Source: a virus. From it: a stretch of DNA of 64,000 nt. Location: IMG/VR virus record IMGVR_UViG_3300022920_000002, positions 36,898 to 100,897 of that record. One strand, 5' to 3'. Numbering within the stretch: position 1 is the first letter of the stretch; every line of letters starts with the position of its first letter. The notes under the pieces were generated by a model, which did no database searches, was not told where the DNA came from, and saw only the letters and a list, made by a program, of their open reading frames with translations. This document shows positions 8,357-46,628 of the stretch, piece by piece. The position numbers and the translations under genes were made by a program.

Positions 8357-8358
8357 AG

Positions 8359-8368
8359 TTTATATATC
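8359..8368 (-). promoter_or_regulatory. GATATATAAA, variant of the late element
   Basis: Variant of the recurring element, only 3 bp from the ATG at 8356. This close spacing would give an almost leaderless transcript, so it may instead act as an A/T-rich start region. Confidence 0.25.
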
Positions 8369-8371
8369 TTG

Positions 8372-17600: not shown

Positions 17601-20600
17601 ATCCATTTGTATTAGCATTTGTTATAGAATCTCTATTGTTTACATCTAAGAAAACAGCAGAGTTTGCATTAGGAATTAAAATACCTGATTGTAATCTTCT
17701 ATAACCTTTAATATTTGATTTGACATAAAAGTAATCAGCACCATCTTCAATAATAGCCGTAAAATCAATAGGACTATTATTAACACATTCCGTAATTGCT
17801 TTAGCAATATCAGCAAAGTTACCTTGAGATGAGAACGAAGTGCTCTCGTATGTACCTGATGGTAAAACTGGCGAAGCAAAGAATGTTGAATTATCTAATT
17901 TAACGCTTGTTTGAATTTCAGACACTTTAGCGATTGTACTTGAAGTTAAAGGAACCGTAGCTTCAAAAGATATTTCTAAATCTGAAAGAGTTGCATACTT
18001 ATCTGTAATATAAATAGTTTTATCTATATCAGATCTTTCTATTTTAATACCAGCACTATTACCGTCTGGGTATAAGTTTTGAATAGTATCAAATGTATCT
18101 GAAAGAGTTGTTCCCGTAGCTATTACGTGTTCAATTGGAGTACCTCCTTGTATATTTAGCTTTAACTTCCAGCCTTCACCTGCAATATGTCTTAAGAATT
18201 TAATAGAATATGCAGATTCTTTAGAATCAAAAATTACAAATCTATCATTAGATTGTGGAATTCCAGTTACCTGTACTTTATTAAAATCAAAACCTGCTGA
18301 ATCTTCTTTAATAACATCTATAGAGTTACCATTAGCAGCTAGTTTTATTTCAGAAGAAATACTATTATCACTATCTTCTACAATTACATTTAAACTGCTA
18401 GTCTCATAAGCAGCCCTAGATGATATTTTATAGAATGTATCACTTACCGCAACATAACCTAAAGTTGGAGTTCCGGAAATATGTTTGAATGAAGGTATTG
18501 CAGATTCTGGAGAGTCATTAATATCAGAGCTTAAAGTCTTAAATATAATGTTTCCATTTTCTGCTGTAGATATACTACCACTTCCTGAATCAATATCGTT
18601 TACATAAAGTCCAAAATATCTATTAATAGAATAATCAGAAGCGCTGTTATCATCAAATAAGAATTCTAAATTAATAAGATTTGCACATGCTAAGTTGTTT
18701 CTTTGAAAGCCATCACTAATAATTTGATTACTAGCAATTAATGGACTATCATTTCTTACAAAATCTTGATATAAAAATTCAGGCTTTGATGCAAATCCGC
18801 CTTTAACTAAATCAATACCTCTGAAATTTGATTTCTCACCTTTAGCAAAATTAAATTGTATTGGCGATTTAGGGAATGCTTCTGCATTAACGTGATTTCT
18901 AATATATTTACCTAAAGAAGATTCTGAAGTTAAATCAAATGTCTTAACAATCTCAGAGTGTTTAAGTATATCTTGTATGTTTTCTAAATTAGATCTATCG
19001 TCAAAATCTAATTCTCCAACTGGATCGTTAACTCTAAATACTACAAATTTCTTAGGAACTTCTTTATCCAACCAGATTGGAGCTAACATTCTAAAATCTT
19101 CATCATGAATTTTAGAGTAATTATATGTAGTACCATAATGATACACTTCTTCTATTTGCTTATTGAAACTATCTTGAACTGAATAGTCAGAATAATCTGA
19201 TCTCGTAGCAAACATTATATCTCCTGGCGTGTAGTTAGACTTATAGAATCTCTGTAAATCATAAGACCATTTACCTGTAGCATTAAGTTCCCATTTTTTA
19301 TATTCAATAGATGCTAATTCTTTTGTAGCATCAATTGATTCAATAAAGATCTTATTAGAACTATTAGCAACTAATTTTGCATTAGTAGATAATTTAGGGT
19401 TTGTTCTTAACAATGGTTTAGAAACGTTATCCAACGTGTAGTTTGTTTCTAAATCAAAATTAGGTAAATTTCTATTTGTAATTATTGCATTATCAAGCGT
19501 TGGAAATGTATAAGATAGCCATGTTCCAGTTTCTGAATCACACAAATAACAAATGCTTCCATTTGCACTACTTTCTACAATATCTTGTTGATATAATACC
19601 GTTGAGTTACTACCAAATCCTAAATCAACCGGGTTGATAGATATTGGTTTTAAGTCAACATCTAAATTTTGTTGATATGTTCCTATTTCAACTTCTAACT
19701 TGTCAATTGCATCTTCAATGTTAGTTGCTATAATTCTATTAATATAGGTATAACAATTACCATCTACTTTAATTTGCGCACGTTCTCCTAAGTTTAAAAC
19801 ATCTGAAGTTCTAAGAGTTTTAATGAAATCTAAAATATAAGAAACATCATCTCCGGATTCTGATGCAAAATGTAAACCATCTATTACATATAATGGGAAA
19901 TAAGGCTGGGTTCCAGTAGTTAATCCCGGATCTAATTGAGCTTCACATCCATAAAAAACATAATACATCGATTTAGAAGAATCGCTTTCTAGCCCAATCG
20001 TAGTATCATTTGGTGGTCCTATAATAGGCAAATCTAAAAGAGGCCTTACGTAATCGGCGTTTGGCAAACCAATGCCGTCACCACAACCTCCTAATATAGA
20101 GCCTACGTTTGCAATTTCCAATACATTGTCTGAATCAAAACCGTACCACCTGGTCGATCCTGCATATCCAGTTGCATTATCATTATCCCATACTACGAAA
20201 CCTCCTGTGGTAGCGTCTAATATCACTGAACTAGGCTGTAATAGTGTATAATCTAGAACAGTAGCTCCTCCTTGTGTAGCAAAGACTCTAACTTGTTTTT
20301 GGGCTAATTGTAATAATGTATAATCAGGTGATGTTCCATTAGGATCTGGTATACCATTACCATCTAATCTTGGAGATCTATACCATATAATTATGTCATC
20401 AAATAATGTATTAACATCTGCCCATGTTTGGTAAGTTCCGAATACATTACATACCGACCCAATATCTGTTGGATCTGGCGTAAACCATTTTACAGAAAGC
20501 CATTTAGTATCATATACTGTTGCAGGAACACATTCAAATAAATTTGGATCAGGTGCACCAGACACTCCATTTGCTAGCCAAATGCCGGCGTCGACAATAT

Positions 20601-22839
20601 AGTATTGTAATGGACTTTGTTGTAACGCAGTATCTGTATATGAACCGCTCGGTGCTAATTGTTCTGATGGCGCAGTAGATCCTGAATAAGAATTTGCTAC
20701 AGCTTCACTTGAAAACAATTGACCATTTGCCGCAACAACGTCTGATAGTGTAGTGTTAAAACCACCACTATTAAGTTCTCCAATATTTTGCCAAACCTCA
20801 ACTTCAACCACAGACGACTCATTATCACATAATGGACCATAGTTTTCTTCATAAGATACTAGTATTGGCCATGCGCTACCAGTCGTAACATTACAGTTTA
20901 CAATTTCTTCAAGAGTTGCCCCAGAAGATATCTTTATAGCTCTTACTGTGTTGTTTGCAGTTTCTTCAGCAGAAAGCCATGGCGATCCTGCACTAAAAAA
21001 ATTAACAGGTACTGTTAGAGCTTGATCTTGGTATAGTTGATAACCCGGTCCTATTGGTAAATCCGATAAGAACGTTGAAAAAGCAGCTAAATTTGTATTA
21101 GCACTAGTATCATACCAGTATTCTAATGGACCTCTAGTTAAATTACAAACAGTAGTGCTTGAGTTTCCAAAATTAGAAACCAATACTTTTCTAGAAGCAG
21201 CTGCAGATGATTCAAAAGTAAATGTTATATTTTCACTAGCATCATATCCTCCGTAAAAATCTACTACTTTAAGAGTTACACTAATACTATTAGAGACTGC
21301 CGTTGCTGTCACCGAAAGTATTCCGGTAAATGTGTTATATGCTGCATTAATTGGACCCGATTGACTCTCGATTGAGACTGTTACATCATGATTTTCAGCA
21401 TCATTTGTTGTAATTGCAGCACTCTCCCATTCCATACCAACTGCCATTGATATTGTACTAGGAGGTGATATTGTAAACGTAGGAGCAGCATTACTAGGAG
21501 TTAGTACCTGTATTTGTATTTGACCTATATCAGTTAAACCATACTCATCCGTTGCTCTAAAATAAAATACTTCAGTTTGTGATGAATCATTTGGGGTAAG
21601 ATCTACACTTGTTGTATACGTAAAACCCTCTGTAATATTTGGAGTTGGAGCAATAGCTCCCGCTTGTAAGTTTTGGTTTATCTGAGCAAGTGTTATTACA
21701 TTACTTCCGTTCTGGTCATCAACCCAATCGTATGTTACAGTTGGAGTATTCTCATCAGTTGCCGTTCTTTGAAATGATGTTGTATTACCATTTTGCCCCT
21801 GTAATGAAACACTAACAGGATTTGCACTTGGTGCTACGTTAGCAGGATCATTAACTGTAATTTCTACTTCCGCAGCGAACAGTTGTTCTTGCCCGTTTGA
21901 ATCTTCCGCTTTATAGAAAAAAGCATCTGTGTTTCCACCTGCAAATGAATTATTTGGGTAATATCTAATTTTTAAGGGATCTGCGCCCGTAATTGTAGTA
22001 GGGGTTGTTGTAATATCAACTCCCTGTAATGTTTTAAGCGTTCCATTCGCAGGAAGCGCTGTTATGTTTATTGTATAACTTTCTGATTCAGGCTCTGTAA
22101 CATGCTGTGAAAAATCTATTTCCTTAAATGAACTGCCATCTCCGGCATTCACCATATTAGTAATTACATTATTACTGACCGGTGGTAGATTAACACTACT
22201 ATCAGTAATAGTAACTGTTACAGTACTGTTTCCAGTGTTTGTCACACCGTTAACATCAGCAGCATCTAATACTAATTCAAGAATTTCATCACCTTCATTA
22301 AAAGAAATGTCTTCTGCAATACTAAAACTTTGAGACCAATTACCCGAAGAAAAAGTTCCGGAAGCTACCCAATTGGCTGGGACCACTAAATCGTTGGCAT
22401 CTATTGTAGTATTAGCACCAAGAGTCCAGCCTATACTATCAAGTGTTCCTCCTGATGGGTCTGCATTTACTACAAAATTTACTGTAGTTCCCTCATTTGT
22501 TGATGAAATATTACCGGCAGTTTCTAAAACATAAATAGGATCTGGGGGAAGTGTCGTAGTCGTAGTTACAGGCGATTGGACGACACCTACATCACTAATC
22601 TGTACTACATAGCCAACAGTATTTATAGAGTACCACCAGTAATCATCACCTCCAACTACTTCGTTACCCGTAGTTAAGCCTGCATCTGTAAATAATACGT
22701 CGCCAGCTTCTAGATCTGTGCTACTTCCTTGTGCCGCCTCGTCAAAGTGATATGTTATAGTATTTACACTTCCAGGTCCGTTTGTCCAAGCACCCGCTTC
22801 TGTTGTGTACCCACTATTATGAAATATAATTTGTGCCAT
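14632..22839 (-). CDS. Giant virion protein, tandem beta-sandwich adhesin
   Basis: At 2735 aa the largest gene in the window. After an N-terminal domain and the linker TTTTTLPP (92-99) comes a Calx-beta-like domain (about 110-210; NEGTTVNFVV, NEGDEILELVL, STVTVTITD), then cadherin/Big-like repeats to about 560 (YPNNSFAG..DAFFYKAEDSNG; YFRATDEYGLTD). The next 500 residues are beta-rich with scattered cysteines. The C-terminal 1400 residues look like a conserved virion core. It probably forms a long tail or baseplate appendage. The 5' end carries GATATATAATA and TATAAATA elements. No frameshift is visible across 8.2 kb. Receptor binding is inferred. Confidence 0.7.
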   Translation of the reverse strand: MAQIIFHNSGYTTEAGAWTNGPGSVNTITYHFDEAAQGSSTDLEAGDVLFTDAGLTTGNEVVGGDDYWWYSINTVGYVVQISDVGVVQSPVTTTTTLPPDPIYVLETAGNISSTNEGTTVNFVVNADPSGGTLDSIGWTLGANTTIDANDLVVPANWVASGTFSSGNWSQSFSIAEDISFNEGDEILELVLDAADVNGVTNTGNSTVTVTITDSSVNLPPVSNNVITNMVNAGDGSSFKEIDFSQHVTEPESESYTINITALPANGTLKTLQGVDITTTPTTITGADPLKIRYYPNNSFAGGNTDAFFYKAEDSNGQEQLFAAEVEITVNDPANVAPSANPVSVSLQGQNGNTTSFQRTATDENTPTVTYDWVDDQNGSNVITLAQINQNLQAGAIAPTPNITEGFTYTTSVDLTPNDSSQTEVFYFRATDEYGLTDIGQIQIQVLTPSNAAPTFTISPPSTISMAVGMEWESAAITTNDAENHDVTVSIESQSGPINAAYNTFTGILSVTATAVSNSISVTLKVVDFYGGYDASENITFTFESSAAASRKVLVSNFGNSSTTVCNLTRGPLEYWYDTSANTNLAAFSTFLSDLPIGPGYQLYQDQALTVPVNFFSAGSPWLSAEETANNTVRAIKISSGATLEEIVNCNVTTGSAWPILVSYEENYGPLCDNESSVVEVEVWQNIGELNSGGFNTTLSDVVAANGQLFSSEAVANSYSGSTAPSEQLAPSGSYTDTALQQSPLQYYIVDAGIWLANGVSGAPDPNLFECVPATVYDTKWLSVKWFTPDPTDIGSVCNVFGTYQTWADVNTLFDDIIIWYRSPRLDGNGIPDPNGTSPDYTLLQLAQKQVRVFATQGGATVLDYTLLQPSSVILDATTGGFVVWDNDNATGYAGSTRWYGFDSDNVLEIANVGSILGGCGDGIGLPNADYVRPLLDLPIIGPPNDTTIGLESDSSKSMYYVFYGCEAQLDPGLTTGTQPYFPLYVIDGLHFASESGDDVSYILDFIKTLRTSDVLNLGERAQIKVDGNCYTYINRIIATNIEDAIDKLEVEIGTYQQNLDVDLKPISINPVDLGFGSNSTVLYQQDIVESSANGSICYLCDSETGTWLSYTFPTLDNAIITNRNLPNFDLETNYTLDNVSKPLLRTNPKLSTNAKLVANSSNKIFIESIDATKELASIEYKKWELNATGKWSYDLQRFYKSNYTPGDIMFATRSDYSDYSVQDSFNKQIEEVYHYGTTYNYSKIHDEDFRMLAPIWLDKEVPKKFVVFRVNDPVGELDFDDRSNLENIQDILKHSEIVKTFDLTSESSLGKYIRNHVNAEAFPKSPIQFNFAKGEKSNFRGIDLVKGGFASKPEFLYQDFVRNDSPLIASNQIISDGFQRNNLACANLINLEFLFDDNSASDYSINRYFGLYVNDIDSGSGSISTAENGNIIFKTLSSDINDSPESAIPSFKHISGTPTLGYVAVSDTFYKISSRAAYETSSLNVIVEDSDNSISSEIKLAANGNSIDVIKEDSAGFDFNKVQVTGIPQSNDRFVIFDSKESAYSIKFLRHIAGEGWKLKLNIQGGTPIEHVIATGTTLSDTFDTIQNLYPDGNSAGIKIERSDIDKTIYITDKYATLSDLEISFEATVPLTSSTIAKVSEIQTSVKLDNSTFFASPVLPSGTYESTSFSSQGNFADIAKAITECVNNSPIDFTAIIEDGADYFYVKSNIKGYRRLQSGILIPNANSAVFLDVNNRDSITNANTNGLLNLSDVIFNVNQVYYMNGGNSAGKSILVTKDSVADINVGDLIATNSDNVYNKVIDIVEDIERADTIYNKIILEDINTLASGEQNVYADNVARIGLFSAYDIHDMDFDFYDISNSDLKELEFETPANINYEPQQSTTNTLTVFDSEFEDEPVNYFTGIGGILPEEGLDSYNESKLWSEYDRLQENNLKQFAVRSRVTPNINKWVLKDGTTVREEGYHLNSNEAFGRTNFSPDFDAEGRDRLGMTHEWFYLDNVPKYLKYDQLNDTFSYVNFLEGFELNASHFKSTSYNYFDRFMVTEGFEKTDSNGIKSFIKTNLQKKYTNVSGGNDASFGSTLFKGIKVSFKNRKEFENITTNDFVKSSEFNGYKFSTLVMVRGGQATNDIEYEVIQNKEFEFVVFLITISMDDLWIDGALNRKLLYEMNHSFVWNHETENFSYSDVAISGALNLNDINFTDPTAADYLIASGIDHVDGGLPQFLDQINPDENEVFGNIYVTVQDSSGPVTFKLKIASIDDQAQLTLTSAPVDLNGNPVNVSNIAGYLQTSATYVYKGGGKNAFTSILGSLSVSAVSDLLKNNDGSIKYTTVEIDGAINSNRFEIQFESGVEVIKQSMLVTVSDEEKPKTFKLKQGTIGYELSVSDTYYPFLVRHNGDYTISTNPIVTFTDTYTHFKTNTLQSTANPTEILFEESMYKHSLTNAKEVELARDYYKKYNRCGTSFNLGYIQDRNIHDNGWGIIKNHFYRKVNETNAAAVTKLSESTDKLPLYPLIGEVTIDKKDINVFKSSWDKNYYTRSLSGGLFEQVPGTFETKEERSYLGSTIMKIKDSYNITNFTSYATKTQEQQDRILANGDEKYDVVSFENKDYIYMDFYITSTLKKLLSSDGVLNSINKFVTAVNSAGDKTTTKDDALLYVENNLLNTFNLDQIKLYTSRRKGQFSEILSTDSIDNLDDGAFSNDINFTFKSHEQQPLNFRLIYNKRLGYSYEVRPMVKIKS
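14685..14695 (-). promoter_or_regulatory. Candidate late promoter element GATATATAATA inside the giant gene
   Basis: Exact minus-strand copy inside the 3' end of the 2735-aa gene, 59 bp upstream of the 14625 start, where it could give separate expression of the Hint-containing fibre. It also encodes part of the protein, so chance occurrence is more likely here than at the intergenic copies. Confidence 0.35.
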
Positions 22840-31916: not shown

Positions 31917-32188
31917 TATCTAGTGAGTTTATTATCTTTTTTAACTGTATAGTTTTTGTAACTTCTTAAAAATCTATTAGCATTAAGTATATTAAGTAAA
32001 TAGTCATCTAAGAATTGAATAAATTCAGATACTACTTTATTTCTTTGTATATGTTTAGATAACATGTTTGCTAGTAAACCTTTAGTCTGATAATTACCAG
32101 GACCGTTTAATCTAACATCTTGCTTTTCTTTAGCAACATCATATAGCCTCTTTCTTTTATATGTAAATAAGTTTTTATATAATGACAT
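31916..32188 (-). CDS. Small basic protein inside the wedge operon
   Basis: 90 aa, strongly basic and helical (KNLFTYKRKRLYDVAKEKQ; KNYTVKKDNK). It is joined to gp6 upstream and the gp7-like gene downstream by TAATG overlaps on both sides, so it is almost certainly expressed with them. T4 has no equivalent between genes 6 and 7 that I recognise. It may be a small wedge subunit or an assembly factor. Confidence 0.65.
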   Translation of the reverse strand: MSLYKNLFTYKRKRLYDVAKEKQDVRLNGPGNYQTKGLLANMLSKHIQRNKVVSEFIQFLDDYLLNILNANRFLRSYKNYTVKKDNKLTR

Positions 32189-34017
32189 TATTTCAGGGCT
32201 TTTCTATTTCCAGCTTGTACTCTAGTGTAAATAGTTCTAGGCACTGGGTTAGGGTCAAAATTAACTGACATTGCTGCTTCCGCATTTATCAAAGCTGTAT
32301 CTACGATTTCGTCACCGTCACGATCTTGCCATCCACCTCTAAATACTGCAACCTCTTCCTTCTCCATTATTATATCACCCCACTGGTCTAGCCCTGCAAC
32401 AGTATATGGTATCACTGTAGAAGCTTCAACATCAACAGTCTTCACTTCTTCTATTTTCTTAAAGAAGATATATTTTTGTTTACCATTACCTATGTCTTCT
32501 AAAACTACAGGCTCTTGCGGTTGTACTGTTACTGTAACAGATTCATAGTAACCAAGTCTTCTTGCAGTCTCTTCTGTTTCAGAAATAAATCTAATATTAA
32601 CAGCATCAATTCCCTCTATCTTTTCTAAGATGTAAATAATATCTGACTTAGGTAGTTTATCTCTTCTTGTTACATTTAACAAATAATCACTTACCTTGGT
32701 TCTAACATCGTTAAAGATTTCTTCTTTACTAAATCCTTCAAAATATCTAATATCAATATCCATGCTATATTTTCTAACTTTAGGTTTAACAAATACAACT
32801 TCTGTTGTTACCATTTGCTGACCACTAGTTTGAATCACTTGTCCCATTTTGTCATATTCGTTTTGGTCGAAGAACATTTCGTTTTCTGGGATTGAAAAAT
32901 AATCTTGCCCAGTCGCTAATTTCTTTTTAACATCTGGCACTGCAAAAATATAGATTACATTATCATCATCTAAATACTCATCTGACGTAGTATTGTAAGC
33001 GTCGATGTACGAGAATAAACCGTATCTTGATAAGAAGTATTCATAATTATCTGGCGTTGCTAAAACAAAAGATTTTGAAGCAAGAGGCGTCATAATTTTA
33101 GTAAATTCTATAGACTCTCTGTCAGATCCCATTTTAGGAGACGACGTTACAGTAATATCTAAAAACTCATTTAAGTCATGTGTTACTCCTAATGAATCAG
33201 TACCTTCAGCTTCCCACTTAAATGTAATATCTTGGCCATCGTCTATATTACCAGAATAGCCATCATGTTGTACATATTCTACTTCAATAGTAGATCCTAG
33301 TTGTGGAATTGCACCAAAAGCTCCATTACCAAAATAAATATCAATACCACCTGAGATACCTGTTTTTACTAAGTAGCCTTTTTCTTTATTTAATAAGTCA
33401 TATAAAGACTCATGTTTAGTCCACTTTTCTCCATTGACTGAAACAGCCACTTTTGAATGATCCGATAGTTTTACAGTTTGTAAATTAAATGATTGTAGTT
33501 TCTCACCAGTTCCAGTTACAGTTTGTGTTTCTAAAACACCCTGCATAAGTGGAGCTTTAATCTTAAACATGTTAGTCTTTTCTAATCTAAATCTATCATT
33601 TGAAGAAATGGCAGAATATTTTAAATTGTTTAATTCACATTTAAGTTCTGCGTTTGTTTCTATATTTAAACCAGTTCCTGCAATCTTACCTAGATCAGCA
33701 CCTGGCTTCCATCTAAATTCAATTTCACCGGTTGCTGCAAAACCTCTAGTTGCATCATGGCCTGTTAATCTTGACATACCATAAATAGATTCAGGCTGTT
33801 GTGCTGTATAAATATTTTGCTCAACAACTGAGTCTTCAATATAGAACATAATAAGTTCATACAATTCACCGAATACGTTAATGATCTGAGCAAATGGAGA
33901 CGCCTCCGTGAATAAAGTATTGGCACGTTTGTAAACTCTTGTAATATAAGTTCTCGTGTCCTGTTGGATTTGGGTTGCTCTTGCCCTAGTCGTTTCTAAA
34001 AAATTTAATTGTGCCAT
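32188..34017 (-). CDS. 6: Baseplate wedge protein gp6
   Basis: gp6 forms the ring that joins the baseplate wedges and belongs to the baseplate J superfamily. Length 609 aa (T4: 660). Supporting segments: the N-terminal helical region (FLETTRARATQIQQDTRTYITRVYKRANTLF), the ASPFAQIINVFGELYELIMFYIEDS stretch, the PESIYGMSRLTGHDATRGFAATGEI turn, and the C-terminal J-like domain (VRTKVSDYLLN, LPKSDIIYILEKIEGIDAVNIRFISE). It follows gp25 by 16 nt, the usual neighbour pair in contractile tails. Confidence 0.8.
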   Translation of the reverse strand: MAQLNFLETTRARATQIQQDTRTYITRVYKRANTLFTEASPFAQIINVFGELYELIMFYIEDSVVEQNIYTAQQPESIYGMSRLTGHDATRGFAATGEIEFRWKPGADLGKIAGTGLNIETNAELKCELNNLKYSAISSNDRFRLEKTNMFKIKAPLMQGVLETQTVTGTGEKLQSFNLQTVKLSDHSKVAVSVNGEKWTKHESLYDLLNKEKGYLVKTGISGGIDIYFGNGAFGAIPQLGSTIEVEYVQHDGYSGNIDDGQDITFKWEAEGTDSLGVTHDLNEFLDITVTSSPKMGSDRESIEFTKIMTPLASKSFVLATPDNYEYFLSRYGLFSYIDAYNTTSDEYLDDDNVIYIFAVPDVKKKLATGQDYFSIPENEMFFDQNEYDKMGQVIQTSGQQMVTTEVVFVKPKVRKYSMDIDIRYFEGFSKEEIFNDVRTKVSDYLLNVTRRDKLPKSDIIYILEKIEGIDAVNIRFISETEETARRLGYYESVTVTVQPQEPVVLEDIGNGKQKYIFFKKIEEVKTVDVEASTVIPYTVAGLDQWGDIIMEKEEVAVFRGGWQDRDGDEIVDTALINAEAAMSVNFDPNPVPRTIYTRVQAGNRKALK

Positions 34018-34033
34018 TTATTATTTATCTCTT

Positions 34034-34390
34034 TTATCTTAGGTTTATTTGTACTAGGTATTTACTATCAACTGTAATATCAATATAAGCAATATCTCTC
34101 ACTTCACCTCTAAAGAACTTGACATCTGTTTCTACATTATACTTTACAGCCAATGGACAATATCTAGATATCTGGTCATCAATCGTACTTCTAATTTGAT
34201 ATTCGTTCTGGCCTAAAGAATAAACCATATCTTCTAGGTTGCATCCAAAGGTTGGAGAACCTAAAACTTCTTGTCTTCTAGTGAACAATATCGTTTCGAT
34301 CTGAGTCAGTAATTGCTCAATCTCACCGTTGTTTTGTATTTGTGTCGAATTGTAGTTCGGGTCACCTATGTACTTTATATATAAATCCAT
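34034..34390 (-). CDS. 25: Baseplate wedge protein gp25
   Basis: 118 aa (T4: 132). The gp25/GpW family core is clear: IEQLLTQIETILFTRRQEVLGSPTFGCNLEDMVYSLGQ, with the R...G.p.FG motif and the helix that contacts gp6, and a C-terminal YIDITVDSKYLVQINL strand. gp25 is a universal contractile-tail wedge component that nucleates sheath assembly. It lies directly before gp6 and after the neck-type gene. Confidence 0.88.
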   Translation of the reverse strand: MDLYIKYIGDPNYNSTQIQNNGEIEQLLTQIETILFTRRQEVLGSPTFGCNLEDMVYSLGQNEYQIRSTIDDQISRYCPLAVKYNVETDVKFFRGEVRDIAYIDITVDSKYLVQINLR

Positions 34391-34420: not shown

Positions 34421-35263
34421 TTATGAGTGGAACATCCAGTCCACGCCTTCATCGCCTTTGATTTCTTCAACAATTGACTCTAATTCGGTGTCTCCCATGT
34501 CTTTTATTGCTCCATAATCAAATTCAACATTACCAGGTAATGCAAATTTAAAAATACCTAACTTAGCGCCAAGTGATTGTTTAATCTTAGCACTTACATA
34601 TCTAAAAAATATCTCGTCACTGTACAATGCACAATCTGAAATAGTTTCATATATGTTTAATATCACATCTCCCTTTGGAGTATCACCTAATATCTTTAAC
34701 TTACCATCTAATCTAGTGTAGTTAAAGCTAATAGGATTTTCCATAATTTGTCTAGACATATCAGCTAAAGAAGCATTCAATACATAATATTGTAATTCTT
34801 CTGCTGCTTCTGCAGGGCCTGAGCCATCGTACATTCCTCTAAACAACATTTTTTCTAAAGCAAAGTCTCCGCCACCTTGGAATCTCACATCCATGCCTCC
34901 ACCTGTACTGTTAAATCCGGATTTTAAATCAAATACACCAAACACAGAATATACTCCGCCACCACCGTCAGCGCCAGCTTTTGGTAGATTTAAACATCTA
35001 GTGTTTTTAAAGTATGCTGATTGAAAAACTGCAGCAGGGATATGATAATAGTTTTCTGCAACAGAATCTTCATATTGTTTATAGAACCATTTCTTAGCTC
35101 TATTAATAATATTAACAATTTCTTTTTGTGGTAAATTAACAGGCACCATACAAGCACCGGTCATATCATCACCGATCTCCTGTAAGAATTCGTTTAAACA
35201 GTTATTACCAAAATCTCTTTCGGTACCTAATCCATTTTCACTGCCGCTTCTAATTTCGCTCAT
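34421..35263 (-). CDS. Neck protein, gp13-like
   Basis: 280 aa (T4 gp13: 309). The best evidence is the C-terminal region DEIFFRYVSAKIKQSLGAKLG, FALPGNVEFDYGAIKDMGDTELESIVEEI. This follows the T4-type gp13 pattern, in which a helix with Lys/Arg and a Gly-x-x-L is followed by LPG-x-V-x-hydrophobic, an Asp/Gly turn and an acidic helix. gp13 closes the head-to-tail joint after packaging. The centre has Gly-rich loops. It begins the wedge operon. The assignment is moderate because only the C-terminal pattern is distinctive. Confidence 0.55.
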   Translation of the reverse strand: MSEIRSGSENGLGTERDFGNNCLNEFLQEIGDDMTGACMVPVNLPQKEIVNIINRAKKWFYKQYEDSVAENYYHIPAAVFQSAYFKNTRCLNLPKAGADGGGGVYSVFGVFDLKSGFNSTGGGMDVRFQGGGDFALEKMLFRGMYDGSGPAEAAEELQYYVLNASLADMSRQIMENPISFNYTRLDGKLKILGDTPKGDVILNIYETISDCALYSDEIFFRYVSAKIKQSLGAKLGIFKFALPGNVEFDYGAIKDMGDTELESIVEEIKGDEGVDWMFHS

Positions 35264-35264
35264 T

Positions 35265-36578
35265 TTAGTTTTTAATTTTTTTACTTACTATAACTTCAGT
35301 CTCATCTGAGAATCTAGCATGAGGTCCAACCCCACCTTCTCTGAAAATACCTCCAGTCATTCTACCTTTAAAAATACCATCTCTTCCAAAAACATAACAG
35401 TTTTTTAAATGACAGCTACCATGTACAAACGAAGATTCAACTTTAGAATCTGCCACTTCAGCACCTTGGTATAGATTTGATCTTAATATTTGTGCTCCTT
35501 CGATTTTACCACCGTAAATTTCACAATTCTCAAGATTACCAGATAACTTGCAATTAACAAATTCAAAACCGTCTAATAAATATGCTGTTTTAAAAACACC
35601 ATCTTTAACTTGGATCGCCCCATAATCAGAATCATAGTTAATTACGCCCTCTTCCATACTACCGTTCGATAGAAGATCTAAGACTTTTTTCTTAAATCGA
35701 TTCCATTGGACTCTAATAACCTGAGGATCATCTTGTAAATCTACTAGTATATGTATCTTAGGCCAATGTTTATTTACGGCGCTATAGTCTTTTAACATAG
35801 CCATTAGCGGCTCATTTTTCTGTAAAATCCTTTTCATCTCTATTTTATTCTCAGGTGTAAACCTAGGATTAAAACAAGAATTAAAAATTGACAGGATAAA
35901 CATGTCAGCTAAATTTAAAATATCTTCAGTTCTTTTTTCGTAATCAGCACCACCAACATATCTAAATTCTAGATAATTGCTTTGAGCCTTTTCAAAGTTA
36001 ATACCGTAATATTTAGTATTAGCAAATGTAAAGTTATCTGAACTTATTAAATTTTCATTGTAATAAAAGGCTTCATGTTTAGGCATAACCCATTTAATAG
36101 ATTTTGCATAAGTAGAATTTTCTCTATTAGGGAAGTATTTGTAAACTCTCTTCTCGTCGAATTCTAAAATAAACTTTAAAATATTCATTTTAGAAATCAT
36201 TAGAGTATCTTCTAAACAGTCTGGGTTAAAAGACATGTTTAGGTGGATAGAGGCTCGATCATTTGTATAACCGTTCTCTCTAATCCATCCCAACATTTTA
36301 ATGATAACTAATCTTGCATCACGATATAGCATCGCTCCAGTTACAAGTTCCATAAGGCCTTTACCACCAGACATATCTGGTTCAAGTTTAAAAACCTCTT
36401 TACTAGGTTGAAAGTCTGAATGTGCCTTAGTCTCTAATCTAATTTTACGATTAAGTAACTTAGATATAGAATCTACAGTAGCTTGTTCTTCTAGATTTGA
36501 GTAGAATTCAAATTCAATCCCAATCTGACTTGAGTTGAGTATTGAAATCCTACTAGATTCTTTGTTTAGTTTTTGCAT
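35265..36578 (-). CDS. Putative amidoligase with beta-helix-like C-terminus
   Basis: 437 aa. The N-terminal two-thirds fits the amidoligase (COOH-NH2 ligase, glutamine-synthetase-like) pattern: G20-I-E22-F-E24, D(M)SGGKGLMELVTGAMLYRDAR, a helix, then SIHLNMSF, and later NYLEFRYVGGADYEKR. Known relatives join amines or amino acids to carboxylates using ATP. The C-terminal part (about 335-420) is an array of short strands with Asn/Gly turns (FVNCKLSGNLENCEIYGG and following) like a pentapeptide or right-handed beta helix. It lies between the S1-like and neck genes. Target is unknown; modification of a virion protein or the host wall are options. A GATATATATT element lies upstream. Confidence 0.6.
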   Translation of the reverse strand: MQKLNKESSRISILNSSQIGIEFEFYSNLEEQATVDSISKLLNRKIRLETKAHSDFQPSKEVFKLEPDMSGGKGLMELVTGAMLYRDARLVIIKMLGWIRENGYTNDRASIHLNMSFNPDCLEDTLMISKMNILKFILEFDEKRVYKYFPNRENSTYAKSIKWVMPKHEAFYYNENLISSDNFTFANTKYYGINFEKAQSNYLEFRYVGGADYEKRTEDILNLADMFILSIFNSCFNPRFTPENKIEMKRILQKNEPLMAMLKDYSAVNKHWPKIHILVDLQDDPQVIRVQWNRFKKKVLDLLSNGSMEEGVINYDSDYGAIQVKDGVFKTAYLLDGFEFVNCKLSGNLENCEIYGGKIEGAQILRSNLYQGAEVADSKVESSFVHGSCHLKNCYVFGRDGIFKGRMTGGIFREGGVGPHARFSDETEVIVSKKIKN

Positions 36579-36628: not shown

Positions 36629-37912
36629 TTATTGGGGCATCTTCAAAAACACCTTCATTGTACCTTCATCAATCCTAGTAATTTGAACAGTGATCTTGTC
36701 ACCAGGGTTAAATACAGTCATTGTTTCTTCTCCAATCTCACTAACGTGTAGTAATCCAGTTACACCATCTTCAATATTAATAAACAAACCATAGTCTTTT
36801 TTAGACTTAACAGTTGCTTCTACCACTGATGGTATTGAGTATCTAGTAGATATGTTAATCCAAGGATTAACTTCTACGACATCCTTCTGAGTTAACGTAA
36901 TTTTATTATTACTAATAATATCTTTTACTTTAAACGCAATAGCATCTCCTGGTTTAATCTCTCTAGCTTTGAATTTAGTTAAAGTATCTTCGTCTAAGTC
37001 GTTGTTGTGAATCATACCTGTTAAGCATTTATCAAATTCAACAAATACACCATACTTAGCAGTTCCAGTTACTAGACCCTGCTTATCTTCAGAAATACTT
37101 TCTTTTAAATTATCTATAGCTTGTGGTATAAGTGCTTGTAAGTATTTTCTATGTGATACTACAATCGTGCCTCTGTCTGCTGAGAAGCTTACTGGTACAA
37201 CATAAATTTCTTCACCTATAATAGAACTAAAGTCTGATAGTTTATTAATACCTGCAAGTGAACCTGGCATAAAGCAATTAATACCCTGTACTTCTACAAC
37301 GTATCCGCCATTTTCAATCATGTTCTTTACAGTACCGATCCATGCAGTTCTACCTTCCTCAATTCCATTTCTTAAATCTGTGAATGTTTTATGCTTAATA
37401 CCACCAGTAATAGTTCCTGCTAGTAATCCTTTTGTTTCTGTAATTAAGACTGCAGTCTCATCACCAACCGAACTAGCTTTTACAATATCAGATTCTTTAC
37501 CGAAGTTAACGTAAACTAATTCTCTATAACCAACATCAACTGTGATATATTGTTGATCTATTCCGTAAATAATACCTTCATGGATTTCACCCTCATTAAC
37601 ATTAGGTTTTATATCTTGTCCAAACTCTTCCATTGTATCGTAGAGTTGCTGCGCATACGGCTCTCTAGAAAATACCTTATCACCATCTTTAGTTTTAATA
37701 TGTGGGTTTGGTTTTCTATACCTAGTTGGGCATGTGCTTTCGTAAGCATCCCATAGGAACTCTCCATTTTCATCGTAAAATTCGTCGTGTTGTCCAACAA
37801 CTTCTTCTGGCTTTGTGGTTGCCGTTGTTGTTTCTTGGTTTGTAGTTTCTTCTTTAACTACGGTGATTGTTGCATCGGAAGTATCTCCGATTCGTTTTCT
37901 CTTCTGAGTCAT
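36629..37912 (-). CDS. Ribosomal protein S1-like RNA-binding protein
   Basis: 427 aa with four S1 (OB-fold) repeats, at about 105-175 (EGIIYGIDQQYITVDVGYRELVYV), 184-258 (GTVKNMIENGGYVVEVQGINCFMPGS), 271-342 (GLVTGTAKYGVFVEFDKCLTGMIHNNDL) and 358-427 (VVEATVKSKKDYGLFINIEDGVTGLLHVSEI). An acidic, Thr-rich 100-residue N-terminus precedes them. Bacterial S1 recruits mRNAs to the 30S subunit; phage-borne S1 homologues are known in marine phages. Since phage genes here have A/T-rich leaders without Shine-Dalgarno sites, a role in favouring phage mRNA is plausible but inferred. A GATATATAATA element lies 42 bp upstream. Confidence 0.85.
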   Translation of the reverse strand: MTQKRKRIGDTSDATITVVKEETTNQETTTATTKPEEVVGQHDEFYDENGEFLWDAYESTCPTRYRKPNPHIKTKDGDKVFSREPYAQQLYDTMEEFGQDIKPNVNEGEIHEGIIYGIDQQYITVDVGYRELVYVNFGKESDIVKASSVGDETAVLITETKGLLAGTITGGIKHKTFTDLRNGIEEGRTAWIGTVKNMIENGGYVVEVQGINCFMPGSLAGINKLSDFSSIIGEEIYVVPVSFSADRGTIVVSHRKYLQALIPQAIDNLKESISEDKQGLVTGTAKYGVFVEFDKCLTGMIHNNDLDEDTLTKFKAREIKPGDAIAFKVKDIISNNKITLTQKDVVEVNPWINISTRYSIPSVVEATVKSKKDYGLFINIEDGVTGLLHVSEIGEETMTVFNPGDKITVQITRIDEGTMKVFLKMPQ

Positions 37913-38140: not shown

Positions 38141-38539
38141 ATGAGTAAATTTAATGTAAATGAAGTAAAGTGTAATGGAGTCGGTGGCTCCGGTTACCAG
38201 GCAGTTCTTAAACACAAGGATGCAATCCAAGGAATTTGTCAAGAAGTTAGAGATCTTATCGGTATTGAAAAACTATGGGAACTAGCAACTACAGATCCTA
38301 ATGTGGATTATCACCAAGGTACTAGATTTAATTCTGTAGAAGATAATGCATACCGACTTATTACTGGAATAGCAGGACATGTGGCTGAGTATCTCCCGAC
38401 AAGTGAGTTAATCGAGATGCACGTAGGAGCCATTCTACCGATGTTAACAATGAAAGATAAGGTAACACTTGTTGCCGATGCTTGTAGGGACTGTGCGTCT
38501 GCAGACCATTGGTATACCTTCGAAAAAGACTGGGGTTAA
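38141..38539 (+). CDS. Unknown 132-aa protein, second isolated plus-strand gene
   Basis: 132 aa with its own conserved promoter box. Composition is ordinary and helical (IEKLWELATTDPNVDYHQG; YRLITGIAGHVAEYLPTSELIEMHVG). Several Cys and His residues (CNGVGG, CQEV, CRDCAS, H) are present but form no known zinc pattern. Its stop overlaps the stop of the convergent 635-aa gene (TAA on both strands, within 4 bp). By analogy with the other box-controlled genes it is probably expressed early. Function unknown. Confidence 0.75.
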   Translation: MSKFNVNEVKCNGVGGSGYQAVLKHKDAIQGICQEVRDLIGIEKLWELATTDPNVDYHQGTRFNSVEDNAYRLITGIAGHVAEYLPTSELIEMHVGAILPMLTMKDKVTLVADACRDCASADHWYTFEKDWG

Positions 38540-40443
38540 AATACAATAGGTACAAAACCAACCATAGGCACTGGACCTACAGGAGTTGGAATACCACCAA
38601 GATATAATAGTTTAAATTCAAGTAGATGCAGGGCATAAGTTCCTGCAACTGCAGTTGCGGTTGCATTTGATGCTGGAGCCTGAGTTCCAGGTGTTGCAAA
38701 AGATTTACCTGTATTCCAGGCTCTTCTTAAATTATTTGCTAAACGATTTGCACTTCCATAATAAATTGGAATATAAATTCCTGTTAGTGGTGCTGGTATT
38801 AAAGCAGGGGGAGCAGATGGCATATTTTTAAATGGTTTAACAATACAAGCATACCAATATGCTATTGTAACTCTTGCCATCATCATATAAGGATCTCCGC
38901 TAAATGATTTACCACCAGGAGTAGTTCCACTTGGATCCCATGGATGTGCAACTTCAGTCATTGGTTCTTCACAGTTAGCAGCAGCCTTAATAGCACAAAG
39001 AGCTTTATGGAATTCAAATTTATATTGAGTACCTGCCTCATCACCATTCCATGAACTACCATCCCAGCCTAAAGCTAAGAATGCATCACCTGGTTTTGAT
39101 TTGCCCATAAAAGAACTATCATCACTTGCTCTTGCAGCTGCATTTAATTTACCTTGAGGTGGAGTCTTTCTCCATTTATTTTTCCACTCTCCATTTTCGT
39201 ATTTTGATTTTACCCAATTACTAGTCTTCTCATACTTAACATTATTTGAACCTTTGCTAAATTGAACTTTAAGATTATTAGTAATATAAGGTTCTCCTCC
39301 AGTTCTTTTGTTTGGATAAAATGAAAAAGCAGCAACTACGTTAGATGTTAAAACCTTAGGCCTTTTACTTGGATTTTCCGGTGGAGTATGTTCAAAATCA
39401 TAAGCCACTTGTATTTTATATGGATTTATAGGACAATAGTCAGGTGTAATATCTTTTCCATCTGGGTCTAATAACGTAGGATATTCAATTTGTTCTGTTG
39501 CAACCCTTTTAATTCGCTTTTTAATAACAGAGTTACTACCAGTTCCAATGCCATCATTATCTAATTCTGGATGTGCAGCTAATATTGCATCACGTACATA
39601 TTTAGAAACATTATCTGCTAATTTTTCATAATTATATCCCGCAGCAGCAATTTCAGTTCTAGCCTTACTGTTTATATTAGGATATGGTAGACTATTATCA
39701 AGTACTCCTGTATTGCTTGTTGAATAATTTGATTTGCCTAAATGACATGCCCATACAAAATAATCCCATCTTCCATTTCCGTTACTCATATACTTATATC
39801 CCATTAAAATTCTAGTTGCAAAAATAACTTCTAATTCTTCTTGAGACTCTGTACCTATTAAGCACGGGAATTGATAAAACTTAAATCTATATAAATCATA
39901 GTTACTAGCATTTTCAGCTGATGTAAACTGATTAAAGGCTTTAGTATTTTCTGCTTCAATCTTAGCTAAAGCTTCAGCGTCTGGTTGTTTAATTTCAGGA
40001 CAAAAATCAGCATAGGCAGGATGAGACTCTTTTCCCATCTCAATTAAATTACCATCTTCATCATATTGATCTTGTAGAGGTATATCACCTTCTCGTAAAA
40101 GTCTTTCGAATGCAATACCATACCCTTCTTTTAAAAGTGCCTCAGCACCTCCGTTATTAGTATGAAGTTCTCCAACATGCGTTTGTGCCATACTCTTTAC
40201 AGCATCTAAATAATGTTGAGCAACTTGTTTACCGAAATCATATCTACCTGAAAGTGGCGCAACGTTAAATGAATTAACATAATCAGCTTGATTAGATTTT
40301 AAAATAGCATTTTTAGGATTACCTACAACAGACTCTTGTACTGGAAGATCATAAGAAATTCCGGCACCTCCTGGTTTAGTAAATTGCTGGCTCTGTAGCG
40401 TATTCGCTAATGCTGGAATAAATGTAGCCCAATTTGCTGGCAT
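38536..40443 (-). CDS. Unknown 635-aa hub-region virion protein
   Basis: 635 aa, not recognised. The N-terminus NWATFIPALANTLQSQQF is followed by helical and mixed regions, several charged loops and a hydrophobic Pro/Gly-rich C-terminal part (AYWYACIVKPFKN, SAPPALIPAPLTGIYIPIYYG, GGIPTPVGPVPMVGFVPIVF). It follows the gp5-like spike gene by 2 nt. T4 gp5 carries a lysozyme domain that is absent here, so this gene could supply a spike tip, hub plug or cell-penetration function. No catalytic motif is visible, and the terminal hydrophobic region could interact with membranes. Confidence 0.6.
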   Translation of the reverse strand: MPANWATFIPALANTLQSQQFTKPGGAGISYDLPVQESVVGNPKNAILKSNQADYVNSFNVAPLSGRYDFGKQVAQHYLDAVKSMAQTHVGELHTNNGGAEALLKEGYGIAFERLLREGDIPLQDQYDEDGNLIEMGKESHPAYADFCPEIKQPDAEALAKIEAENTKAFNQFTSAENASNYDLYRFKFYQFPCLIGTESQEELEVIFATRILMGYKYMSNGNGRWDYFVWACHLGKSNYSTSNTGVLDNSLPYPNINSKARTEIAAAGYNYEKLADNVSKYVRDAILAAHPELDNDGIGTGSNSVIKKRIKRVATEQIEYPTLLDPDGKDITPDYCPINPYKIQVAYDFEHTPPENPSKRPKVLTSNVVAAFSFYPNKRTGGEPYITNNLKVQFSKGSNNVKYEKTSNWVKSKYENGEWKNKWRKTPPQGKLNAAARASDDSSFMGKSKPGDAFLALGWDGSSWNGDEAGTQYKFEFHKALCAIKAAANCEEPMTEVAHPWDPSGTTPGGKSFSGDPYMMMARVTIAYWYACIVKPFKNMPSAPPALIPAPLTGIYIPIYYGSANRLANNLRRAWNTGKSFATPGTQAPASNATATAVAGTYALHLLEFKLLYLGGIPTPVGPVPMVGFVPIVF

Positions 40444-40445
40444 AA

Positions 40446-41165
40446 TTACTTATTCTTTTGTTGATAGTTAATATGAGTACTAGATAGTTTTGCTACCGTT
40501 ACTGGAGTAGGCGGCATCGGTGGACCTGATGGCCCAACTCCTGTTGGATGTATATGTGCATTGTAATCATCTAATAAAGCCTGTAACCAATCTTGTAAAG
40601 ATTGACCCCTCACTGCTGGCTCAGTTTCATCTGCTCCACCTTCTCCAGTATTAGATACAAATATATCACCGCAATCCATAAAGATCTTTGCATCCGTAGA
40701 TATCTTAATAAAACCCTCTTCATCTATTTGAATCATAGGTCTTTCTTTTGCGCCCTCGCCTCTTGTAATAACTAAACCATCTTCTGGTGAGTGGTATATT
40801 CTTAAATTACGTTCCGCGTCATATACTAATGAGATAACATCATGTGGTGCTCCAGACTTTTCAAGGATATCTCCTTTAAGTTCTACGTTCTGATCTATTT
40901 GAAACCAGTATTCAGGATGGTAGATGTTTCCATTGTCAAATCTAACTGCGACAATATCACCTACTCTTGGTACGATATGCATACCAGGTGCTTCTCTATT
41001 CTGTGGAGTTGCCCATGGAATAGCATCATCAGGTAACTTATCAAATTTACCATATACCTTTACTCGTGCTCTACCTTGAAGTAGTGGATCTTCTATATCG
41101 ACGACCTCTCCTAACCAATGTGCATCTCGTAAATTATCTCTAAATAGTTCATCGTTATTATTCAT
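40446..41165 (-). CDS. 5: Baseplate hub spike, gp5-like without lysozyme domain
   Basis: 239 aa (T4 gp5: 575). The N-terminal OB-fold domain is clear: HWLGEVVDIEDPLLQGRARVKVYGKFD, AIPWATPQ, GDIVAVRFDNGNIYHPEYW. It is followed by a repeat-containing spike-like section (LRIYHSPEDGLVITRGEG..MIQIDEEGFIKISTDAKIFM) and a Pro-rich end with HIHPTGVGPSGPPMPPTP. This is the gp5/gpV puncturing device. The internal lysozyme of T4 is missing, as in many other contractile phages. The start overlaps the 457-aa gene by 8 nt. Confidence 0.8.
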   Translation of the reverse strand: MNNNDELFRDNLRDAHWLGEVVDIEDPLLQGRARVKVYGKFDKLPDDAIPWATPQNREAPGMHIVPRVGDIVAVRFDNGNIYHPEYWFQIDQNVELKGDILEKSGAPHDVISLVYDAERNLRIYHSPEDGLVITRGEGAKERPMIQIDEEGFIKISTDAKIFMDCGDIFVSNTGEGGADETEPAVRGQSLQDWLQALLDDYNAHIHPTGVGPSGPPMPPTPVTVAKLSSTHINYQQKNK

Positions 41166-44073: not shown

Positions 44074-44877
44074 TTAATTACAGGGTGCTCCGTCGTTAGC
44101 AATATCGTTACTATTACCAGTACCTCCGGGTGACGTTCCATCTCCAGCTGCACCACCAGTTGGATCTGCACTTCCAGCACCTTTGCCTGCGTTTGATGTT
44201 TGACCACCACCCTTACCGGCTTTATCTGCTAAATTTTTATCTAATTGACTCTCGGTCAAACTGTCACCTGTATCGGCGGATGTATTCGTATCTTCAAATA
44301 ATTCTAAAGCATCTTCTAACTGATCAATTCTATTTTCTATCACTTCTCTAGTAAGATCTGATAATATAGATTCAGTAACCGCATCATTCTGAGCTTGAGC
44401 TCCTAATATTACAGTACCATCAGGTTTAAATGCATAATTCTTTTTACCAACTGCAATTACGTTAGGTGGCAATAGAGTTTCTTTGTTATATTTCTTTTTA
44501 AGAGCTTCTAATCTATTCTTATCCTTTTGACTCAGTCTTTTACCTTGTACAAATTGATTCTTAATAGAATTCTCTTCGGATATGCTAGGTCGATCTAATC
44601 TATAAAATGGCACACCATCATCTGGAATTTCTAAAGTCTCTCCAGGTCTTAATGAGAACGGATCTGAAATACCATTCCATTTTAGAATAACATCAGTCAT
44701 ACTATCGCTATTATAGTATTCTAAAGAAATTAAGTCAGGTCTCCCTACCTCATCATCTCGTACAACGTGGTATGCGATAATGTTAACGTTTTGTTTTCGT
44801 TTAAACATCATCGTTGGTTGGGCTAAGACATACTTAATCCCATCAATTGCTTTATATAGTAAACTTTTAAATTCCAT
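44074..44877 (-). CDS. LysM-containing baseplate protein, gp53-like
   Basis: 267 aa. Residues about 36-86 form a LysM-like domain (YHVVRDDEVGRPDLISLEYYNSDSMTDVILKWNGISDPFSLRPGETLEIP), which T4 gp53 and the P2 gpX family also carry. The centre is basic and helical, followed by an acidic helix and a Gly-rich C-terminal tail. The start is coupled to the 583-aa gene by a TAATG overlap. In contractile phages such LysM proteins connect hub and wedge, not peptidoglycan. T4 gp53 is shorter (196 aa), so the equivalence is by domain and position. Confidence 0.6.
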   Translation of the reverse strand: MEFKSLLYKAIDGIKYVLAQPTMMFKRKQNVNIIAYHVVRDDEVGRPDLISLEYYNSDSMTDVILKWNGISDPFSLRPGETLEIPDDGVPFYRLDRPSISEENSIKNQFVQGKRLSQKDKNRLEALKKKYNKETLLPPNVIAVGKKNYAFKPDGTVILGAQAQNDAVTESILSDLTREVIENRIDQLEDALELFEDTNTSADTGDSLTESQLDKNLADKAGKGGGQTSNAGKGAGSADPTGGAAGDGTSPGGTGNSNDIANDGAPCN

Positions 44878-46628
44878 TATCCGTGTCCAAAATTTGATAG
44901 TTTAGTTGCAAGTCCTGCAGTAATATTCTTTCTATCTTTATTACCATAAGCACTTACATCAACAATTTTATCTAAATCAACTGCTCCTTCAACTTCTGGT
45001 TGTAAATACATTCTACCTCTACCAGCGTTAAACATGCTTTCAATTTCACCCTTATCTCTAGGTCTTGCAGGTTTTAAACTACATACTAGTTTCATTTTAC
45101 TTGGAAAGCCTTCATAACCTAAAGGGCCTTCAAATTCTACAGAAGAATTTTGTAAAGCTAAATTACCACAAACCATCATCGGGTTCATAGGATTACCTAC
45201 AGTCATGTGCCATTGTCCAGTTGGATCTCCAGTTAAGAATGCTGCAATTACTTGACCACCTTGAGGACCATTCATTAATTTCATTAGTCCACCACCGATA
45301 ATGTTATCCATAATCTTAGAGTCACCTAATGCATTAATACCTTTACCACTTAAAAGACCACTTGCCGCTTTTCCTATATCATCGAACGCAGCACCCATTG
45401 AAGATTTCAATTGAGTAGTTAAACTAGTCATAAACCCAGCGTAATCTCCATTCTTTAATTTTTCAGCATCACCGAAAGGCGCTCCAACTGAGCCACTTCC
45501 AGTATATCTAGTAGCACCACCCCAAAACGGAGCATTGTTATATGTTAATGCTAATATGTTTGATAACGTATCCATAAATGCAATCTTAGGCGATGTACCT
45601 AAGTAACCTCTTAAGTCATAATGGAATGTTAAGTTAAACTCACTATCGAATTGTAAACCTTGTTCTCTTGATAAAACTTCTTTAATTACGTTTAAAGGTC
45701 CAAACACTTTATTTGGATATGTTTCTTTCATAGGATCAAAACCGCCACCTTTATCTCTAATTGTTGCAGCTTCACTTGCACTCTTACCACTAAGACCTGC
45801 TTCAACAGCACGACCTAATGAAGATGAATCCATCATCTCTCCAAGTTTACCCCTAGATTTAGCATTACCTTGTACTGTTTGAATTTCTGATTCCACCTTT
45901 TTCCATGGGAATGCAGTACCAAACTTTAAAATCTCTTTCATGTCATTACCTAAAGCAGGTGACATCCATGTCATTACTCTAGCCAAATCAGGTTGTGAAG
46001 AATCAAACTCCTTACCATTCTTATCTAAACCAGTAACATTCATAATATCATCATTTACAGGATATGCAAATCTTCTTAATGTAATTAAGTACTCGTTAGA
46101 AATTTGACCATAATGTTCACATTGTATAAAGTCAGAAAATGAATAAGAATAACCTGATCCACCATTCGCAGAAGCATACTCTACAATTCTTCTAGCAGTT
46201 GGGTTTAATATATTAGAATCATTTCCTTCTAATGTAGTTTTATTATATTTCTTATATGCATTCTTTCCCCTTACAGTTCCAGTTCCAGTATTCTTGTAAT
46301 TATGTAGAGCCCACTTATTGTATAATGATTTTACACCTTTACCTTCACTTACTTTATCAGGATTACCATCTTTAATCTTGTAAGTTCTAGAATCAACAGC
46401 ATTAGTACCGTATTTAGAAGTAATTACACCGCCCTTACCGTCTGGTTGAAAGAATGTAGTACTACCCGGAGCTACTGCATCGTCCTCTCCCTCTTCTATT
46501 ACAGAATTAATAACTGGTTCATCTACAATCTCCTGGTTCTTAACTACCTCCTCACCAGCTTCATTATCGTAATAAGTAAACTTAGTTGGAGGTCCAGGGG
46601 AAATGTTTAATAGTGTATACTTCGCCAT
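44877..46628 (-). CDS. Baseplate tube/hub-associated structural protein (583 aa)
   Basis: 583 aa. A disordered acidic N-terminal 100 residues is followed by a tube-like domain: FIQCEHYGQISNEYLITLRRFAYPVND, GLQFDSEFNLTFHYDLRGYLGTSPKIAFMDTLSNILALTYNNAPFWGG, and near the end HMTVGNPMNPMMVCGNLALQNSSVEFEGPLGYEGFPSKMKLVCSLKPARPRDKGEIESMFNAG. The last segment, with GNP.NP and FP...K/PRDK..IESMFN, is distinctive and probably conserved across marine myophages. A Gly/Ser-rich insertion separates the two halves. T4 gp29 or gp48 are possible counterparts. A GATATATATT element precedes it. Confidence 0.5.
   Translation of the reverse strand: MAKYTLLNISPGPPTKFTYYDNEAGEEVVKNQEIVDEPVINSVIEEGEDDAVAPGSTTFFQPDGKGGVITSKYGTNAVDSRTYKIKDGNPDKVSEGKGVKSLYNKWALHNYKNTGTGTVRGKNAYKKYNKTTLEGNDSNILNPTARRIVEYASANGGSGYSYSFSDFIQCEHYGQISNEYLITLRRFAYPVNDDIMNVTGLDKNGKEFDSSQPDLARVMTWMSPALGNDMKEILKFGTAFPWKKVESEIQTVQGNAKSRGKLGEMMDSSSLGRAVEAGLSGKSASEAATIRDKGGGFDPMKETYPNKVFGPLNVIKEVLSREQGLQFDSEFNLTFHYDLRGYLGTSPKIAFMDTLSNILALTYNNAPFWGGATRYTGSGSVGAPFGDAEKLKNGDYAGFMTSLTTQLKSSMGAAFDDIGKAASGLLSGKGINALGDSKIMDNIIGGGLMKLMNGPQGGQVIAAFLTGDPTGQWHMTVGNPMNPMMVCGNLALQNSSVEFEGPLGYEGFPSKMKLVCSLKPARPRDKGEIESMFNAGRGRMYLQPEVEGAVDLDKIVDVSAYGNKDRKNITAGLATKLSNFGHG

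Follow-up and report, generated by a model that had tools for sequence, protein, structure and literature searches.

Amidoligases were predicted to be encoded by phages in 2009 (Iyer et al. 2009, cited in PMC10580990, PMC11318856). In phages tf (gp21, Pseudomonas), CW02 (gp9, Salinivibrio) and phi14:2 (Cellulophaga), the enzyme belongs to the Amidoligase_2 family (PF12224), has a glutamine synthetase (GS)-like fold, and is encoded in an early cassette together with a GATase II, a COOH-NH2 ligase, a RimK-like ATP-grasp enzyme and GGCT. The amidoligase of phage UFV-P2 likewise lies in an early cassette, with GATase and ATP-grasp (PMC3890496). No substrate of any phage amidoligase is reported in the papers searched. 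The gene described here is predicted to share the fold of the tf, CW02 and phi14:2 enzymes, along with the order of their motifs (GxExE, DGS...E, HxH, R, KY/RYxxxN, ExR; compared as sequences, in weak alignments). Unlike the early-cassette amidoligases, however, it stands alone, within a structural operon, and its product carries a C-terminal beta-solenoid.

The 64,000-nucleotide stretch of DNA analyzed here (the window) comes from a 100.9-kb IMG/VR virus record, which is a fragment. The amidoligase-family gene (P0001, 437 aa) was assigned by open reading frame and translation to positions 35265-36578 on the minus strand; a plus-strand reading of this interval was rejected, as it contains stops throughout. 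In agreement with the earlier note, which placed the gene between S1-like and neck genes, the ligase is immediately preceded by an S1-domain (ribosomal protein S1-like) gene (36629-37912, minus strand; PF00575, 2.5e-21), with 50 bases between that gene's stop and its own start, and it stops 1 base ahead of the ATG of a neck/head-tail adaptor gene directly downstream (34421-35263, minus strand; phrog_211 head-tail adaptor, 1.8e-9). Contractile-tail genes flank the ligase on both sides in the window, all of them on the minus strand: a baseplate wedge gp25-like gene (34034-34390; PF04965, 2.4e-5, and phrog_43), a baseplate wedge gp6/J-like gene (32188-34017; phrog_219, 5.3e-24), a baseplate hub gp5-like gene (40446-41165; phrog_430, 2e-11), a baseplate-wedge-like baseplate/tail gene (44074-44877; phrog_15542 and phrog_1269), and a conserved tail-module gene of 583 aa (44877-46628), assigned by linkage. 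Based on the 50-base and 1-base gaps, the ligase is part of one operon with the gp25-like, gp6/J-like and other baseplate genes. Inspection of the C-termini of the neighboring structural proteins revealed no common modifiable motif.

Several other genes of this region are described here for completeness. The S1-like protein (36629-37912, minus strand) has at least two S1 domains above the Pfam cut-off, and its best likeness is to 30S S1 models (7.7e-46, under the cut-off). The 583-aa protein (44877-46628, minus strand) carries no family annotation beyond "hypothetical", and has homologues in Lak, PAU, Tenacibaculum, Chryseobacterium and Flavobacterium phages. A 635-aa protein (38536-40443, minus strand) matches no family; it is conserved in the clade of the window, with a nearly fixed C-terminus (...GFVPIVF), and none was seen in the loci of the largest phages. 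On the opposite strand within the tail operon, a 132-aa ORF (38141-38539, plus strand) is kept in the close relatives L002 and L008; elsewhere, its distance varies or it is absent, which gives it the appearance of an additional, inserted gene. Finally, a 2735-aa ORF in the tail region (14632-22839, minus strand) probably encodes a giant tail or fibre protein.

An AlphaFold2 model of the ligase was built on 42 aligned sequences (pLDDT 91.7). Residues ~8-240 (35859-36557, minus strand) form a predicted GS-like catalytic domain in agreement with VIA-align and Foldseek. The earlier note had staked the amidoligase assignment on this fold, which was recovered: the best superposition of the model (residues 9-240) is with the GS structure 4bax (VIA-align, Z 11.9, rmsd of 3.4 Å for 181 residues), and 50 of the 50 matches listed by VIA-align are glutamine synthetases or gamma-glutamyl-amide synthetases. 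Foldseek additionally matched the model to 8fbp (E 4.8e-4), and a search of a viral model library ranked "Amidoligase enzyme" entries from dozens of phages highest among the named matches, including that of Agrobacterium phage Atu_ph07 (E 7e-11). A sequence-profile search of the PDB returned weak chance or solenoid matches and no GS, and the relationship to GS is thus visible through structure only. NCBIfam searches with the window protein and a PADLOC search returned nothing.

The profile search against amidoligase families proposed in the earlier note was borne out for orthologues and failed for the window protein itself, which gave no match to Pfam Amidoligase_2 (PF12224) at E<=1 or E<=5. 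The gathering cut-off of this family, 22 bits, is an operational threshold rather than a biological feature, and it is passed by eight relatives from the clade of the window at up to 29.9 bits (L014/L013, 26.1; L015, 29.5; L020, 22.8; L063, 26.1; L066, 24.8; L075, 29.9; L128, 26.9), as well as by the Atu_ph07 homologue (30.2 bits). Orthologues with 77-79% identity to the window protein pass or nearly pass it. Taken with the predicted fold and the structural matches to phage amidoligases, these scores agree with the identity originally claimed, and the assignment of the window gene as an Amidoligase_2-type enzyme with a modeled GS fold is well supported.

The active-site region can be compared with that of E. 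coli GS at the level of individual residues. Across 132 of 132 homologues, G20, E22, E24, P67, D68, S70, E77, H112, N114, K135, E142, R152, Y157, K189, Y190, N194, E204, R206 and G209 are invariant, and the motif set GxExE, PDxS...E, HxN, R, KYxxxN, ExR is unchanged. GIEFE (residues 20-24; 36507-36521, minus strand), which lies within IGIEFEF (residues 19-25), would be the counterpart of GPEPE (E129/E131) in GS. The PDxS...E motif falls in EPDMSGGKGLME (residues 66-77; 36348-36383, minus strand), which aligns with HDGS...E of the phage tf amidoligase in an alignment that is weak by itself. In SIHLNMSF (residues 110-117; 36228-36251, minus strand), part of ASIHLNMSF (residues 109-117), the HxN motif would correspond to H269-x-H271. 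R152 (36123-36125, minus strand) would match R321, KYYGIN (residues 189-194; 35997-36014, minus strand) would match R339...R344, and LEFR (residues 203-206; 35961-35972, minus strand) would match IE357VR359. The GS counterparts therefore appear in the order E129/E131, E220, H269/H271, R321, R339/R344, E357/R359 (E. coli positions computed), and we take the matched GS residues to serve the metal/ATP site. This correspondence was drawn from motif order and fold rather than from superposed coordinates, because an hhalign comparison with E. coli GlnA was uninformative: matches to single sequences of tf, CW02, GlnA and COOH-NH2 ligases were not significant, and among the scores seen, that of Atu_ph07 alone was (4e-11). 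The strings on which the assignment had first been based, GIEFEF, LMELVTGAMLYRDAR (residues 75-89) and SIHLNMSF, are all present in the 437-aa translation, and they are not chance resemblances: these segments rank with the best-conserved stretches of a protein found at >540 IMG/VR loci.

Following the catalytic domain, a helical linker domain (residues 241-306; 35661-35858, minus strand; from the secondary structure of the model) connects to a predicted C-terminal beta-solenoid, putatively of pentapeptide-repeat type (about residues 307-437; 35268-35660, minus strand) with a conserved GGIFREG end. An HMM of the linker matches only members of the ligase family. The beta-helix-like array that had been noticed at the C-terminus is recovered in the model as a solenoid over residues ~308-437, and residues 306-437 folded alone also yield a beta-solenoid (pLDDT 92.6). 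Its structural matches, at Z 8-10, are pentapeptide-repeat proteins (NP275/276 fusion, AlbG, MfpA, Qnr) and, equally, other beta-helix proteins; because both kinds match alike, support is good for the solenoid class but does not extend to the exact family. In sequence, sub-threshold matches to Pentapeptide_4 were found for 20 of 42 members (best 5.4e-6; bit scores seen up to 26.8 against a cut-off of 38), and the hydrophobic five-residue periodicity is weak (p 0.03, single sequence). Searches by tblastn and HMM found the domain in the ligase family only. The idea that it is a mobile module used elsewhere in phages was rejected on the same tblastn result.

Homologues of the ligase were confirmed at 544 loci by a profile scan of viral contigs in IMG/VR. 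Full-length homologues with 31-39% identity are present in named uncultured huge phages: LR756500 (462 kb), LR745206 (635 kb), LR756504 (636 kb), LR756502 (642 kb), and the 735-kb LR756501/LR756503, a pair of records with the same length and the same match. These represent five distinct genomes of 462-735 kb. Mahaphage members over 634 kb have predicted Bacteroidetes hosts (PMC7162821). Relative to the closest relative, purifying selection on the ligase is strong (pN 0.09, pS 0.55), with an uncorrected pN/pS of about 0.16-0.35 in the catalytic and C-terminal parts alike. Among 84,980 cellular genomes, 131 pattern matches were obtained and none is a relative of the ligase; hence no host gene or prophage was found.

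The association of the ligase with tail genes extends well beyond the window. In the clade to which the window belongs, the ligase has the S1 gene before it in 94 of 96 loci and the neck gene after it in 93 of 96, the latter nearly always at a gap of 1-7 bases. The exceptions are L022, where the ligase copy is frameshifted, and L025 and L126, two records from a single lineage that have insertions. The L022 copy (8001-9138) is split into 8001-8267 and 8242-9138; sequencing errors are likely there, as the homologues of the S1 gene and of the 38536-40443 gene are split as well. Gene order breaks down in the distant clade that comprises the largest phages: S1 is found elsewhere (at 156 and 217 kb in G001, with the ligase near 236 kb; at 195 and 316 kb in W03, with the ligase at 108 kb) and the neck gene is near in only two loci. 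Nevertheless, baseplate/tail homologues lie within 9 kb of the ligase in 29 of 31 of these loci, which are related and not independent. The commonest linked genes are those corresponding to 44877-46628, which most of the largest phages carry divergently beside the ligase, and to 44074-44877, near the ligase in most distant-clade loci. The ligase is still near baseplate genes in relatives of 600-700 kb, and in a 735-kb phage (L027), no recognized structural gene was found within about 10 kb of it.

The partners of the early-cassette enzymes were sought in nine lineage records, of which that of the window is a fragment and the named ones span 462-735 kb. GATase_6 (PF13522) and COOH-NH2 ligase (PF14395) were found in 0 of 9 with positive search controls, and RimK in 1 of 9, the 735-kb phage, at 154 kb from the ligase. 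GGCT is encoded in three huge phages and adjoins the ligase in none; it was not found in the 101-kb contig of the window. As a separate observation, a RimK-type ATP-grasp ligase gene lies at 86996-87481 in the record L135 (735-kb LR756501), far from the amidoligase.

By analogy with GS, the enzyme would use Mg-ATP to phosphorylate a carboxylate, which would then be joined to an amine or amino acid through an amide bond: E22, E24, E77, H112 and E204 would make up the metal site, and R152, K189 and R206 would contact phosphate. We consider it very likely that the protein is an active GS-fold carboxylate-amine ligase. An alternative is a catalytically dead GS-fold protein that serves as a component of the virion or of a chaperone, and in which the solenoid does the work. 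Such a protein would fit the structural operon, the resemblance of the solenoid to scaffolding and binding modules, and the lack of partner enzymes. It is difficult to reconcile with the ATP site, which the earlier note had expected to be intact in homologues: the GS metal/ATP-site positions are identical in 132 of 132 sequences, at identities down to 31% and with many other positions varying. Such invariance is expected only if the chemistry is retained, and a dead enzyme is thus very unlikely. As a working ligase, the protein may be produced late, as its place in the structural operon suggests, and the solenoid probably docks it on a partner or makes it oligomeric. The substrate would most likely be one of the virion proteins at the baseplate or neck, and the modification would be the addition of an amino acid or amine to a Glu, Asp or C-terminal carboxylate, or an isopeptide cross-link.

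Late expression and a virion partner are favored by three features: the linkage to tail genes, which outlived large rearrangements; the absence of a metabolite-type cassette; and the likeness of the added solenoid to a protein-docking device. The published suggestion for phage amidoligases, including that of phiEco32, is instead one of action at the cell surface (Iyer et al. 2009, cited in PMC10580990, PMC11318856), and the ligase, which has the fold and motifs of these enzymes, could in the same way act on a peptide of the host cell surface or peptidoglycan, or on a metabolite that is secreted, perhaps as a means of keeping out rival phages. The amidoligases of tf, CW02, phi14:2 and UFV-P2, however, come with an early GATase and ATP-grasp cassette, whereas in the nine records of the window lineage GATase_6 and COOH-NH2 ligase were not found, RimK was found in one, and GGCT never adjoins the ligase, whose gene sits among virion genes. 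We therefore regard a cell-surface or metabolite substrate as unlikely, and the genomic context favors a virion protein over the cell wall as candidate target. A role in translation, in which the S1-like neighbor or a ribosomal protein would be modified much as RimK acts on S6, draws on the S1-like gene directly upstream in 94 of 96 loci and on S1-domain proteins in 9 of 9 lineage records searched; the latter bear on takeover of translation, and a redirection of initiation has been proposed for huge phages that encode S1 (PMC7162821). Yet S1 and ligase are far apart in the distant clade while linkage to tail genes persists, and the fold is GS-like rather than the ATP-grasp of RimK, which makes this role quite unlikely. 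Late modification of a virion protein remains our preferred, if tentative, reading, with a chance that falls somewhat short of even, as a place in a structural operon is no proof that the target belongs to the virion. The tail-module genes are common to Lak (540 kb), PAU, PTm1, pT24, MA9V-1 and MaF61 phages, in which a profile search found no ligase and Pfam also gave none; the ligase is therefore a clade-specific addition that is not required by the tail type. Its modification is accordingly not needed for such tails, which counts against a virion substrate. The most specific proposal, a virion-maturation amidoligase of the largest known phages, in which the solenoid would guide a GS-fold enzyme to add amino-acid or isopeptide modifications to baseplate/neck proteins, is possible but doubtful.

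This lineage reduces the amidoligase problem to one enzyme that lacks cassette partners and is tied to virion genes, and the huge phages that carry it form a very widespread group (>540 IMG/VR loci). A lone, virion-linked ligase also permits a direct test, as unexplained mass shifts could be sought on virion proteins. If found, such shifts would reveal what a phage amidoligase acts on, and with it a new type of covalent maturation in phages. To our knowledge, post-translational amide formation on phage tail proteins by a GS-fold ligase that the phage itself encodes would be new.

Compared with GS itself, the ligase shares the catalytic fold and the order of metal/ATP residues at ~10% identity. 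The N-terminal beta-grasp domain of GS has no counterpart, with matches starting at GS residue ~105-118, and a helical linker and solenoid are present in its place. The nearest cultured-phage homologue of the catalytic domain is AUZ94978 of Atu_ph07 (UniProt A0A2L0UZM1), which is also encoded in a virion-protein cluster, two genes from the portal gene. Counting from the major capsid (gp215) and portal (gp198) genes, gene order identifies it as gp196 and places it inside CDS 170-215, one of three clusters that account for the majority of the virion proteins detected by mass spectrometry (PMC6102473). Neither a COOH-NH2 ligase nor GGCT was found in the Atu_ph07 genome. In contrast to the window ligase, AUZ94978 has no solenoid, carries a large insertion near the N-terminus, and is only ~25% identical; its gene is on the strand opposite to its structural neighbors. 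A match over the whole length, including the solenoid, is provided by A0A6J5PQ40, an uncharacterized protein of an uncultured Caudovirales phage with no assigned function (TM 0.84, 23% identity). RimK and R2K ATP-grasp peptide ligases of jumbo phages are proposed to carry out ATP-dependent, amide-forming peptide modification (PMC7824862, PMC4431377), a similar chemistry on an ATP-grasp rather than a GS-like fold. The amidoligase enzyme type is thus already known in phages, and it is the solitary, solenoid-fused form in a structural operon that is new.
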